In this document: piece after piece, positions 26,795-61,016 of the stretch | How positions within the stretch are numbered: position 1 is the stretch's first letter | Layout of the letters: every line of letters starts with the position of its first letter | Assembly (NCBI RefSeq): GCF_001021555.1 | Contig: NZ_LDCP01000003.1 | Span: 124,001 to 188,000, forward strand | Direction: 5' to 3' | Length of the DNA: 64,000 nucleotides | From: Aurantiacibacter marinus | Lineage (GTDB): Bacteria > Pseudomonadota > Alphaproteobacteria > Sphingomonadales > Sphingomonadaceae | The notes under the pieces: generated by a model | Told to the model about the DNA's origin: nothing | The model's input: the letters and a program-made list of their open reading frames with translations, nothing else | Databases searched by the model: none | Program-made: the position numbers and the translations under genes

Positions 26795-26898
26795 GGGCGT
26801 GTTTGGCCTTGGCTGATGTGGTTGTCCCCGCGCACCACTGGCGCGGGCGAAGTTGGCGGCTATATAGGCATTATGCTGCGTTTCGCAATCAATCTGAC

Positions 26899-27924
26899 AT
26901 GACCCGTGTTTATCTGGACCACGCCGCGACCACGCCGCTGCGCCCGCAGGCGCGTGCCGCGATGGAGGAAGGCTTTGCGATCTGGGCCAATCCCAGCTCT
27001 CCCCATGCAGAAGGGCGCAAGGCCAAAGCCGCGCTGGAAGATGCGCGGGAGCGCTGCAAGAACGCGCTCGGCTGGGAGGGAGAGCTGATCTTCACCAGCG
27101 GCGCGAGCGAGGCGGCGGCGCTTGCTCTTGTCCACGCAAACGCAGGGGCACGGTTGGTAAGTCTGGTGGAGCATGACTGTATTCTTGGCACGGTGCCCGA
27201 TGCGGAAAATTTGCCAATGGGCCGCAATGGCGCGCCTGATCTGGAAATTCTGGCGGAAGCTGTGGACCGGGAGCGCCCGCTTGTCGCCGTGCAGCACGTG
27301 AATTCGGAGACCGGCACCATTCAGGATTATGCGCAAATTGCGCCGATAGTCGCCGGAGCAAGCGGACTGTCACTGGCCGACTGCGCGCAAAGTGCTGGCA
27401 AGCTTGCAATCCCGTTGCTGGCCGACATGGCCATCCTGTCCGCGCACAAATTCGGCGGTCCTATCGGAGTTGGCGCCCTGCTGGTGAAGGATTTCGCGAT
27501 GCTGAAGCCATCCGGCGGGCATGAGCGCGGCTATCGGCGCGGGACCGAAAATTTGCCCGATGTGATGGGCATGGCCGCTGCGCTGGAGAACAGTGATTGG
27601 GCGACCTTGCCGGACGAACGCGCCGCTTTTCTAGGCAAGTTTGATGGCATGCGTCAGGTCATTGGCGAGCAGGTCGATTATATCCTGCCGCTCATGCATC
27701 CTACGATGAGCGCGCAGGCGCTGCTCATCAGGCTGGATGCGATGGGCTTTGCGGTATCGGCGGGCAGCGCGTGTTCCTCCGGCTCCATGAAGCCAAGCCG
27801 CGTGTTGCAGGCATTCGGGCTGGACGCAGATACGGCGCGCCGCACAATTCGCGTGTCGCTGGGGTGGAACACTACTTCAGAGGAATTGGATGCGTTTGCA
27901 GCGGCGTGGTCCTCTTTGGGCTGA
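26899..27924 (+). CDS. Cysteine desulfurase, NifS/IscS-like (first copy)
   Basis: A 341-residue PLP enzyme that takes sulfur from cysteine. The opening VYLDHAATTPLRPQARAAM, the PLP lysine in ILSAHKFGGP (about 178), His in LVEHDC and the sulfur-carrying cysteine in SAGSACSSGS (about 293) are in place. It is about 50 residues shorter than E. coli IscS, so parts of the middle and C-terminal tail are trimmed. The ATG at 26899 starts on the family N-terminus. A second, different desulfurase and a ferredoxin follow, but scaffold genes (iscU, sufB) are not here. Confidence 0.9.
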   Translation: MTRVYLDHAATTPLRPQARAAMEEGFAIWANPSSPHAEGRKAKAALEDARERCKNALGWEGELIFTSGASEAAALALVHANAGARLVSLVEHDCILGTVPDAENLPMGRNGAPDLEILAEAVDRERPLVAVQHVNSETGTIQDYAQIAPIVAGASGLSLADCAQSAGKLAIPLLADMAILSAHKFGGPIGVGALLVKDFAMLKPSGGHERGYRRGTENLPDVMGMAAALENSDWATLPDERAAFLGKFDGMRQVIGEQVDYILPLMHPTMSAQALLIRLDAMGFAVSAGSACSSGSMKPSRVLQAFGLDADTARRTIRVSLGWNTTSEELDAFAAAWSSLG

Positions 27925-28072
27925 CCCGTTCGTTCTTTCCTACACTGCTGCGCAAACCCACACGTCACAAATGTCCACCAGCGCTCCCCCCAAAAATCTC
28001 TCAGACACAGTGTCACCCTTGCTCGCACCAGGAAAACTGACAGTTTCCTCCGGGTTTCCGGCACTTTGCGGC

Positions 28073-28100
28073 GGGTTACACCCTGTAACCTTTGTCACCC
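28073..28100 (+). promoter_or_regulatory. 28-bp element, copy A, upstream of the second desulfurase
   Basis: The element reads GGGTTACA, CCC, TGTAACC, then TTTGTCACCC. The left part is a palindrome (GTTACA, 3 bp, TGTAAC) and the right part adds a TGTCAC half-site 9 bp after TGTAAC. It lies 76 nt before ATG 28177. A near-identical copy (26 of 28 bases) is found at 60741-60768 in the same orientation relative to its downstream gene. The surrounding 252-bp gap (27925-28176) holds no gene; it has one more TGTCACCC at 28011-28018. Confidence 0.7.
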
Positions 28101-28176
28101 TACTTCGGTGCGAAAACCCGCTTCGCGCCGGATTCGCCCTTCGACAAACAGGTGGCGAAAGGTTTAGAAGATCACG

Positions 28177-29250
28177 ATGATTTATCTCGATTATCAGGCC
28201 ACCACTCCGCTCGCACCGGAAGCGCGTGATGCCATGCTGAAATGGCTAGACGGGCCGGACGGTATTGGTTTCGGCAATCCGCACAGCTCGCACCGGATGG
28301 GCCGCATGGCGGCGGCCGCGATTGATCTGGCACGCGATCAGGTGGCAGCTTTGTTTCCGCCGGGCGGGCAAGTGATCTTCACCAGCGGCGCGACAGAAGC
28401 GATCAATCTCGCAATACGGGGTTGTCCGGGAGAAGGCGCGATCAGCGTCTCGGCCATCGAGCACGCCGCGGTTCTCGATACCGCCCATGCACTAGGCAAT
28501 TGTCATGAGCTGAACGTAGCGGCAGATGGCCAGTGCAACGCCAGGCAGGATATTCCCGCCAACACCAGGCTTGTCGCGGTGATGCAGGTGAACAACGAAA
28601 TCGGCGTGATCCAGCCGACGGTCGAATTCCACCGCAAGGCCAAGGAGGCGGGCGCGCTGTATCTGATCGACGCGGTGCAGGCTTACGGAAAAATGCCGGT
28701 CGCCAATGCGGATTTGATCGCGGTGAGCGCGCATAAATTGCACGGGCCGAAAGGCGTGGGCGCCTTATGGGTGCGCAACGGCGTGAACCTCACCCCCGTG
28801 CAGACCGGCGGCGGACAGGAAGCGGACCTCCGCTCCGGCACGCTCAGCCCCGCGCTGATCGCCGGGTTCGGCGCGGCGGCGGCTGTTGCGAAAGAGCGGA
28901 TGGCAGCGGATGCCGATCACGTTGCGGCGCTGTGGCACCAGGCGCGCGATATGTTTGACGGGTGGGAGCTGAACGGCAGTGCAGAGGCGCGCTATCTCGG
29001 CAATCTCAACCTGCGTAAGGACGGGCTGGATGTGGCGCGATTGATGAGCGATTGCCGCGATGTGATGTTCTCCGCAGGGTCTGCCTGCGCCAGCGGATCA
29101 GGCCGGGCGAGCCATGTGCTACGCGCGATCGGCTTGTCGGATGCACAAGCGAAAAGCTCCATCCGGCTCGGCTTTGGCCGCTACACCACCATTGAACAAC
29201 TTGAAGAGGCCGCGAAAATCCTTACCAATGCTGCAACGCAGCAAGGATAA
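28177..29250 (+). CDS. Cysteine desulfurase, NifS/IscS-like (second copy)
   Basis: A 357-residue PLP enzyme. It starts MIYLDYQATTPLAPEARDAM; the PLP lysine is in AVSAHKLHGPKGVGAL (about 190), His in AIEHAAVLDTA and the catalytic cysteine in FSAGSACASGSG (about 308). It differs clearly from the first copy, so the pair is not a recent duplication. A conserved 28-bp element sits 76 nt upstream, so it may have its own regulated promoter. The 2Fe-2S ferredoxin frame follows within 5 bp. Confidence 0.9.
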   Translation: MIYLDYQATTPLAPEARDAMLKWLDGPDGIGFGNPHSSHRMGRMAAAAIDLARDQVAALFPPGGQVIFTSGATEAINLAIRGCPGEGAISVSAIEHAAVLDTAHALGNCHELNVAADGQCNARQDIPANTRLVAVMQVNNEIGVIQPTVEFHRKAKEAGALYLIDAVQAYGKMPVANADLIAVSAHKLHGPKGVGALWVRNGVNLTPVQTGGGQEADLRSGTLSPALIAGFGAAAAVAKERMAADADHVAALWHQARDMFDGWELNGSAEARYLGNLNLRKDGLDVARLMSDCRDVMFSAGSACASGSGRASHVLRAIGLSDAQAKSSIRLGFGRYTTIEQLEEAAKILTNAATQQG

Positions 29251-59171: not shown

Positions 59172-60662
59172 TCAATTGCGCCTGATCCATGCGGTAATTG
59201 TGCGGCCGTGCATTTCGACGGACAGATCTTTCGCATAATCACTTGCCAAGGCGGCCTCCACCAGCGCGGTCGCTTCGTTATTCTGGATTGTCATCGGGCT
59301 GCTGGCAGTAACGATTGCGCCAGGGCGGGTCGCCAAGACGCGCGCGACTTCCTCCGCCTGATCAACGCCAAGCGCATTCACTTCCAGGGCATTGTTGAGG
59401 TGATCGGGATAGACAAATTTCGTCGGTACACAGCTGTCCGTCATGCGGTAAAGCGCGGTGGGGCCATCGAACAGCCAGAGGCAATCGCTATCCGCGCCCA
59501 CATGCGGAGAAATGGCGGCCGCCAGATCACCGGCTGCCTGGCGTTCCTCAAGCGAATATTCGTAACGATCAGGCAGAGCCAGCAGAGCAAAAAAGCCCGC
59601 CGACAGTACCAACGCCGGGAACACCCGCAATGGTGCGCGCCGGTCCAGCAGCGGCAAAGCGATTAGCGCGGCTGGCGCGGCCATTGCTGCATAATAATAG
59701 AGATAGACTGTCCCCGGCAGCAGCACTGTTGCGAGCGTGGACAACGCCCAGCCGCAGTAAAACAGCCAATCAGAGAACGGTTGAGGGCGCTTCATGCGGA
59801 ACGCAGCATAGACGCCGCCGATGGCGAGAATTGCGAGCGGTGACACTCCTAGCCAGTGGTCAGACGCCCAGCGGCCTTGCGGAGCGGGCATGCGGTCAAA
59901 GAAGCTGAGGACGTTGGCAAACAGAAACGCATCGAACTCGCCAATCGCGGCGTAAAAGGCACCGGCGGCAACGCTGGGTAACAGGCCGAGCGCGACGAAG
60001 GCCGCAGCCAGCGTGGCAAGACGGGGCAGGGCAATGCCACGGCGATGCTCTACCCAAAGTGCATACAGGCCAAAGAATACGCACTGCGGCAGCACCGTGT
60101 ATTTGACCTGCAAGGCCAGCCCGCCCAGCAGCATCGCCCACATGGCACGCCGCGTGAAACTCGGATGATTGGCGTCGACCAGCAATGCGGCCATGCCCAG
60201 CATCAGCGGCAGGAAGAACACCTCGCTCTGCCCGGAATAGCTGGCGTAGGCGCACAGTAGCATGGTCGAAATCGCGCTTGCCACCATGGCAGAAAAACGG
60301 CCAACCAGTCGCCGTGCGAGGTAGTAGGTCAATACTGCTCCGGCCAAAGCGAACGCAAAGGCGAGGAGCTGATAGGCCAGCGGTCCGGGCCCAAACAACG
60401 CGTGTGCGGCGGCATAAATGGCAAACAGGCCGAAGGGCTTGCGGTCCCACCAGTCAACGAAGGGCAATTCGCCTTCCGTCATGCGCCAGCCGATGAAGCT
60501 GTAAAGCTGCTCGTCAAAATCGGCGACCGGATCACCAAACCAGATGGCGCGCGTTGCCAGCACCAGCAGCGCCAGCAGGCCAAGCGCCAGCGCGTCGCCG
60601 CGCAGAAGCGCTGCGAAACCTCCAGGGCTTTCCTTGCGGGGTACTGCTGCCAGAGTATTCAT
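59172..60662 (-). CDS. GT39-like membrane glycosyltransferase
   Basis: A 496-residue protein with about ten membrane helices and a C-terminal soluble tail. The first periplasmic loop holds DFDEQLYSFIGWRMTEGE (the acidic pair expected for the catalytic base) and WWDRKPFGLFAIYAAAHA, the pattern of ArnT/PMT-like enzymes that use a lipid-linked sugar. The acceptor is unknown. ATG 60662 with AGGAGA upstream is chosen; an in-frame GTG-type extension to 60749 would overlap the 28-bp element and is unlikely. It has its own regulated promoter region. Confidence 0.82.
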   Translation of the reverse strand: MNTLAAVPRKESPGGFAALLRGDALALGLLALLVLATRAIWFGDPVADFDEQLYSFIGWRMTEGELPFVDWWDRKPFGLFAIYAAAHALFGPGPLAYQLLAFAFALAGAVLTYYLARRLVGRFSAMVASAISTMLLCAYASYSGQSEVFFLPLMLGMAALLVDANHPSFTRRAMWAMLLGGLALQVKYTVLPQCVFFGLYALWVEHRRGIALPRLATLAAAFVALGLLPSVAAGAFYAAIGEFDAFLFANVLSFFDRMPAPQGRWASDHWLGVSPLAILAIGGVYAAFRMKRPQPFSDWLFYCGWALSTLATVLLPGTVYLYYYAAMAAPAALIALPLLDRRAPLRVFPALVLSAGFFALLALPDRYEYSLEERQAAGDLAAAISPHVGADSDCLWLFDGPTALYRMTDSCVPTKFVYPDHLNNALEVNALGVDQAEEVARVLATRPGAIVTASSPMTIQNNEATALVEAALASDYAKDLSVEMHGRTITAWIRRN

Positions 60663-61016
60663 CGTGAAACGCGTCTCCTGTTGGTGCCGCAATGGCGCAA
60701 ACGTGGTTAAGAATTGCTTATCCTGCGCCCAAATCGGGCCGGGTGACAAAGGTTACACTGTGTAACCCAGCGATTTCAGGTCTATTATTCATTGATAACA
60801 GAGCGTTGCTGATGAAATGCGGCGGGTGACACTCCGGCGTTTGAATACGCAGCGGACATAGCGATCTCCAATACGAAACGACCGTGCAACCTGGTTAACG
60901 ACACGCCTGTAGGACAGGGCATTCGCGCGCTAACGAACAAATCGCCACCAATTTGCGACCTTTCGGCCTGCCCGCGCGTATATATGAAAACACCAATCTG
61001 ACGGAGCTTCAGCGCA
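60663..61016. other. Divergent promoter region, glycosyltransferase / SOUL gene
   Basis: A 354-bp gap with no gene on either strand. It holds copy B of the 28-bp element (60741-60768) for the leftward gene and another GGGTGACA at 60823-60830. The rightward SOUL gene has no obvious promoter that I can name. Confidence 0.55.
60741..60768 (-). promoter_or_regulatory. 28-bp element, copy B, upstream of the GT39-like gene
   Basis: On the minus strand this reads GGGTTACAC, AG, TGTAACC, TTTGTCACCC, identical to copy A (28073-28100) at 26 of 28 bases; both changes fall in the 3-bp centre of the palindrome. It ends 78 nt before ATG 60662, against 76 nt for copy A, and has the same orientation to its gene. 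A repressor or activator site shared by the two genes is likely. Confidence 0.7.

Follow-up and report, generated by a model that had tools for sequence, protein, structure and literature searches.

The 64,000-nt window analysed here (positions 124,001 to 188,000 of Aurantiacibacter marinus contig NZ_LDCP01000003.1, or C3:124001-188000 in our numbering of a 2.84-Mb genome in 5 contigs) holds two copies of a 28-bp sequence, one ahead of a cysteine desulfurase gene and one ahead of a putative glycosyltransferase gene. We report that both belong to a dispersed family of oriented elements whose half-sites covary with a residue of a small-terminase-like protein (TerS), and that these elements probably serve as packaging start sites for a resident gene transfer agent (GTA). 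Copy A (GGGTTACACCCTGTAACCTTTGTCACCC) and copy B (GGGTTACACAGTGTAACCTTTGTCACCC) agree at 26 of 28 positions, as an earlier sequence-only reading had noted, and it was also right that both mismatches fall inside the palindrome centre. Two such matches occurred in none of 100 dinucleotide shuffles of the 64-kb window. The distances it gave to the following genes are likewise correct: 76 nt from the end of copy A to the ATG at 28177, and 78 nt from the end of copy B to the ATG at 60662, although the open reading frame (ORF) list starts the latter frame at a TTG at 60749 instead. The gene after copy A encodes an IscS/NifS-type cysteine desulfurase (NCBIfam; score under the curated cut-offs), and an NCBIfam search gave no name for the gene after copy B. 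Two cysteine desulfurase-like genes in tandem lie one on each side of element A (window 26803-29250). Overlooked in that reading were a further half-site, S1, and a box (CTTTCCTACA or GTCCTACA), which are parts of the same element as the 28-mer:

27935 to 27944, plus strand: box CTTTCCTACA (motif 1) of copy A
28011 to 28018, plus strand: half-site S1 of copy A, TGTCACCC
28019 to 28072, plus strand: spacer of copy A, 54 nt from S1 to core, of the class with 10.5-bp A/T phasing
28073 to 28100, plus strand: core of copy A, with inverted half-site GGGTTACA, 3 nt, and direct half-sites TGTAACC and TGTCACCC
60741 to 60768, minus strand: core of copy B, with GGGTTACA, CAG, TGTAACC, TT and TGTCACCC
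60769 to 60823, minus strand: spacer of copy B, 55 nt from S1 to core
60824 to 60831, minus strand: half-site S1 of copy B, TGTCACCC
60908 to 60915, minus strand: box GTCCTACA (motif 1) of copy B

The 28-mer is thus one end of an oriented, intergenic element of about 160 bases, which runs from a CTTTCCTACA-like box through about 75-85 nt to S1 (TGTCACCC), a 54-55-nt spacer and the 28-mer core, itself composed of three half-sites, one inverted and then two direct. Searching the whole genome with the 17-mer TGTAACCTTTGTCACCC at up to 3 mismatches returned 23 matches, 13 of them exact, and the 28-mer framework was fitted by 19 matches, representing 19 elements; the reversed-pattern controls for the family gave 3, for the 17-mer, and 0. 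The 17-mer matches L020, L021 and L023 look like chance occurrences, while the status of L022 as an element is uncertain because its TCGTCACGATGTCA core serves as element core in other genomes. S1 was found in all 19 copies, 18 times at −61 to −63 and once at −75, and the box or a near variant in 15. Element flanks generalise the box to [T/G]TCCTAC[A/T] and S1 to TGT[C/A]AC. In 59 of 87 element rows from 11 genomes (58 of 86 elements, as L087 and L117 are one element entered twice; 88 rows were gathered for 93 loose-pattern matches), a box with the orientation of the site is found 100-200 nt upstream of it, compared with 6, 0, 0, 0 and 0 for five control windows (86-87 rows each) and 0/87 for the reversed box. 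The spacer has no conserved sequence, yet its A/T dinucleotides peak each 10.5 bp; over 86 different spacers the phasing power is 0.74, and none of 300 shuffles exceeded 0.03. Phasing of this kind is the usual sign of DNA bent around protein.

Variations on this plan were also recorded. In many genomes a second motif, GCTCTTTCNCATCGTCC, stands between box and S1, about 100-135 nt before the core, and CTCTTT[CG] occurs in 20 of 87 element rows versus 0-1 in control windows. L007 and L149 carry additional half-sites 3' of the core, L149 (G192) with a TTTGTCACCCACC tandem repeat behind terS. L184 (G000:C3, near 294 kb) is a variant element in which the core is a palindrome with 1-nt spacing within a long hairpin and S1 is 58 nt off.

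The sequence-only reading had taken the shared sequence, orientation and distance as pointing to an undescribed regulon or an unusual promoter class. The constraint is real, and following it up yielded a family of DNA sites for which we found no description; the promoter or regulon role was not borne out. The copies lie on either strand across the contigs, and by our own ORF calls all 19 are intergenic, one of them reaching 6 nt into a gene end, rather than being scattered at random. They occur in every gene configuration: upstream of gene starts, behind gene ends, between convergent genes and, in one case, directly behind a small-terminase-like gene (flanking strands in element orientation: 6 (−,−), 5 (+,+), 4 divergent, 3 convergent and 1 one-sided only). 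The predicted constant distance to gene starts did not appear, and the near-equal spacing of 76 and 78 nt is a coincidence of copies A and B, because the nearest gene on that side lies at −6 to 539 nt among the 19 copies and faces the element in 9 of them. A sigma-70 type promoter at a fixed distance was rejected, as distance and orientation to the downstream gene are not constant. NCBIfam gives dnaA, ssb, ruvA, ung and chpT among the neighbours (chosen by eye among 37 flanking proteins; the scores of the dnaA piece and of chpT are under the curated cut-offs).

The small-terminase-like gene of this genome lies outside the window, at G000:C4:259148-259681. Its product matches the phrog_4044 terminase small subunit (PHROGs, E 7e-14), and its matches in PHROGs and BFVD are to small terminases and to no regulator family; Pfam gave HTH_23 only, NCBIfam nothing, and a PDB sequence search nothing relevant. 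The layout is that of a TerS, with an N-terminal helix-turn-helix (HTH), a central helical core and a beta or helical stalk. Element L013 directly follows one of the phrog_4044 genes of this genome, and the remaining copies do not adjoin terS. The same order, terS then element, was seen in nine genomes of five genera (phmmer scan of collected loci). An ortholog (E<1e-40) is present in 11 of 40 genomes of the genus, and all 11 have same-strand half-sites of the local flavour behind terS, the core being weak in G001 and G032. At least two half-sites stand behind terS in 63 of 75 named loci from many genera; for the other TerS-like paralogs of the genus the figure is 1 of 19, and 14 of these 19 have the box upstream. 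In one terS clade (L091, L139, L149, L198, L260, L262, L267, L269), S1 takes the form TGTCCGTCC and falls within the 3'-terminal part of the terS frame.

Gene and elements also go together at the level of whole genomes. At least three element matches, taking the larger count of the loose and TGTCAAC-type patterns with overlapping matches included, were found in 11/11 genus genomes with the ortholog versus 7/29 without it (Fisher 1.4e-5). In the family sample, the third pattern matched in 29 of 46 genomes with the protein (cut-off E<=1e-32) and in 17 of 252 without it (6e-17); about 21 of 55 protein matches had no locus and are outside the locus counts. The pairing of terS and elements is therefore strong but not strict. 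Five genomes (G006, G008, G020, G062 and G063) have no L187-type terS ortholog and yet carry TGTCAACTT-type elements, with ATCGTCACGATGTCAA as the core of many; gene loss, gaps or a different reader protein are possible explanations.

A residue-to-base covariation links protein and DNA indirectly. Residue X of the recognition helix (SAY-X-LR) matches the half-site behind its own gene: R or K goes with TGTCAC/TGTCGC (C-type) and other residues with TGTCAA (A-type). In the first set of 40 terS loci, R/K accompanied C-type sites in 25 cases and A-type in 1, and A/Q accompanied C-type in 1 and A-type in 13 (p 1.6e-8). Among 57 fresh loci, namely those of the 75 named loci outside the 40 used to find the rule, R/K had 38 C-type, 0 A-type and 3 undecided, and A/G/D/E had 1, 12 and 3, respectively (p 8e-11; both p values ignore kinship). 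The next variable residue refines the code among R/K loci of all 75. The count of TGTCGC equals or exceeds that of TGTCAC/TGTAAC in 13/13 K-A loci and does not do so in 18/19 R-A loci (one of these without a half-site) and in 12/12 R-N plus K-N loci. Genome-wide matches to the TGTCGC pattern, some of which are both strands of a single site, number 8, 5, 5, 3, 3, 1 and 0 in seven K-type genomes (the 0 being G191) and 0-1 in eleven others. Two genomes, G095 and G236, carry a pair of terS genes, with one flavour behind each gene and both flavours recurring in the genome. Because of this covariation, binding of the elements by the TerS-like protein is strongly indicated, and we regard it as very probable.

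The element family occurs across the bacterial family, probably Sphingomonadaceae, with half-sites specific to the species. Flavours include TGTCACC, TGTCACTT, TGTCAAC and TGTCGC, and a pattern of one flavour undercounts: the third pattern finds 0 in G015, the loose pattern 29. The strict pattern was found in 8 of 61 genomes, every one in the genus, and in 0 of 24 from other families of the order; the loose pattern in 11 of 40 genus genomes, the TGTCAAC-type S1/core pattern in 14 of 40, and the third pattern in 46 of 298 family genomes. The expectation that relatives would keep the element upstream of the orthologous genes had a mixed outcome. The cysteine desulfurase site carries it in three other genomes (G026, G020 and G072), each in the local flavour, and many relatives are without any element. 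For the glycosyltransferase site, G016 may hold a counterpart (L120), with more DNA in between. Several other element sites recur in two to six species, as judged by eye from the flanks.

An RcGTA-like cluster is present at C1:286.6-300 kb. Above cut-off are a Terminase_6C large terminase (TerL), HK97 portal and capsid, an Rcc01695-type tail protein and a GTA baseplate hub; a megatron match is under its cut-off. The sole Terminase_6C match of the genome lies in this cluster (the search was restricted to this TerL family), and our ORF list has no TerS directly before the cluster TerL. The exact box CTTTCCTACA occurs 21 times in the genome versus 2 for the reversed control: six at elements, seven before genes, and some others inside genes. 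The genes after those seven match GTA_holin_3TM, DUF6456, phage lysozyme, a tail-fibre family and, in three cases, the phrog_4044 small terminase. By this association, motif 1 may act as a GTA-activated promoter of the GTA regulon.

The simplest account of these observations would be that the TerS is site-specific and works for the resident GTA, packaging beginning at the dispersed elements. About 20 oriented copies, kept between genes, would be the DNA sites of the HTH small-terminase-like protein. Once the GTA is switched on, TerS would bind S1 and core, the 54-nt A/T-phased spacer being bent or wrapped around the TerS ring, and bound TerS would recruit the GTA large terminase. Headful packaging would then start at the element and run in one direction, making the elements dispersed pac sites. 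We consider this pac-like role for the RcGTA-like agent probable, though less secure than TerS recognition of the half-sites: physical binding, TerL recruitment, cutting and a packaging bias are all predictions from sequence patterns. A gene-transfer particle supposed to be random may thus start packaging at chosen places. Chances seem about even that the GTA is programmed in a fuller sense, with a DNA-binding TerS that co-evolves with some 20 sites per genome picking the host regions that are packaged and shared, and with two independent terS/site sets in some genomes. Were that so, the regions chosen here would be those beside dnaA, ssb, ruvA, ung, chpT, the terS gene itself and others.

Several results weigh against a packaging role or against the code behind it. 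Four of the 19 copies in this genome lack the box, no box was found ahead of the cluster TerL, and no element lies within 19.5 kb of the GTA cluster. Foldseek against the PDB gave no significant fold match for the TerS-like protein, and its VIA Z is modest. Searches of phage records and viral contigs for a TerS homolog, and of viral contigs for one core flavour, returned none. Seven congeners (G005, G006, G008, G020, G023, G062 and G063) have at least three matches and no ortholog; three of them are 69-79% complete, and five have 8-15 matches or 99-100% completeness. Among the 17 protein-less family genomes with matches, one (G231) has 17. Exceptions to the code are G103 and G191 among the 40 loci, the K-A locus of G191 having TGTCAA, and L311 among the 57. 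On a tree with residue X masked, residue class changes five times and motif class seven times; contrasts on supported branches number three, too few for significance (on average 2.8/3 agree and no contrast is reversed; p 0.25).

The chief rival is a regulatory role for the same TerS binding, though we hold it unlikely. Here the TerS-like protein would have turned transcription factor and, when the GTA regulon is on, would block, end or loop transcription from motif 1, the elements being operators or roadblocks. Motif 1 stands upstream in the same orientation in those 59 of 87 rows and before GTA-type genes, and therefore a promoter at motif 1 would lead to transcription of the site; SPP1 TerS, according to a reference title, likewise represses its own synthesis. 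What such a role leaves unexplained is that no constant gene follows, with 9/19 next genes facing the element and 3/19 copies between convergent genes, and that the protein resembles small terminases rather than any regulator family. That a system organising the chromosome binds the elements, in the manner of matS or parS, with TerS having borrowed or sharing the motif, is improbable. The copies do lie across contigs in both orientations, and GTGACA...TGTCAC has what we take to be a likeness to E. coli matS, but the covariation names the terS product as reader and the site follows terS in many genera.

Descent from a mobile element that bore terS and spread non-autonomous copies, in the manner of a miniature inverted-repeat transposable element (MITE) or a satellite, would account for the one copy attached to terS and for elements persisting in genomes without the ortholog. 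It is already disfavoured, and we think it very improbable, since the copies share motifs, spacing and phasing but no common interior sequence, and where different species have a site at one and the same place, each bears the local flavour. Membership in the dispersed mobile repeats (MITEs or repetitive extragenic palindromic, REP, sequences) was tried as well and rejected, the copies having no common interior. Least probable of all, in our estimate, is an RNA role, the elements being small RNA genes or conserved leaders whose motifs are kept as RNA. The box and the CTCTTTC motif upstream in the same orientation (the latter in 20/87 rows) would fit, but no Rfam family was found at the elements, the half-sites track a protein residue, and the spacer has helical DNA phasing.

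Set beside known systems, the proposed pac-like elements resemble REP sequences, bacterial interspersed mosaic elements (BIMEs) and other dispersed palindromic repeats in being short, intergenic, partly palindromic and present in many copies; they differ in being multi-part, with fixed spacing and an unconserved interior, and in being tied to a TerS gene. REP/BIME repeats are tied to the RAYT transposase. In lambda cosB, the small-terminase contacts are the R sites. The likeness to cosB lies in several such contacts with a bend between them (an IHF bend, going by a reference title), and the difference in that cosB lies next to a cohesive-end cut site in a phage genome, none being seen here. 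A further likeness is to the pac sites of headful phages, which lie in or beside the small terminase gene (P22 pac is inside the TerS gene), as one copy does in 11/11 genus genomes with the ortholog. In SPP1, pacL-pacC-pacR comprises two TerS contact regions around a middle stretch, and the site overlaps promoters. Unlike the single site on a phage genome, there are about 20 copies over the host genome here, the TerS gene is far from TerL, and the half-site code is strong.

RcGTA, CcGTA and DsGTA have the same kind of gene cluster as this genome. In the literature drawn on (PMC11150451, PMC6854486, PMC7947584, PMC11841831, PMC12946183, PMC9611059, PMC6316719), GTA packaging of host DNA is portrayed as more or less random, RcGTA having no known packaging sites and near-random packaging; D. 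shibae GTA particles show discrete packaging peaks, and the cause of the peaks in some GTAs is called an open question. Known GTA small terminases are said there to have no DNA-binding domain, and an HTH TerS with candidate sites would therefore be new. No title among the open literature searched dealt with dispersed GTA packaging sites or with this element. If true, a DNA-binding TerS with dispersed sites would mean directed transfer and would tell which genes get shared. The natural residue-to-base code would also allow tests of DNA reading by small terminases, the mechanism of which a 2022 review called unclear and controversial, and the helically phased spacer bears on the disputed TerS wrapping model.

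An Rfam scan of the whole window gave no match. The same scan of the 19 element loci gave a single one, a terC RNA (RF03067, 61.9 bits) at L004:1586-1646 (G000:C1, near 693.7 kb), which lies directly behind element L004.
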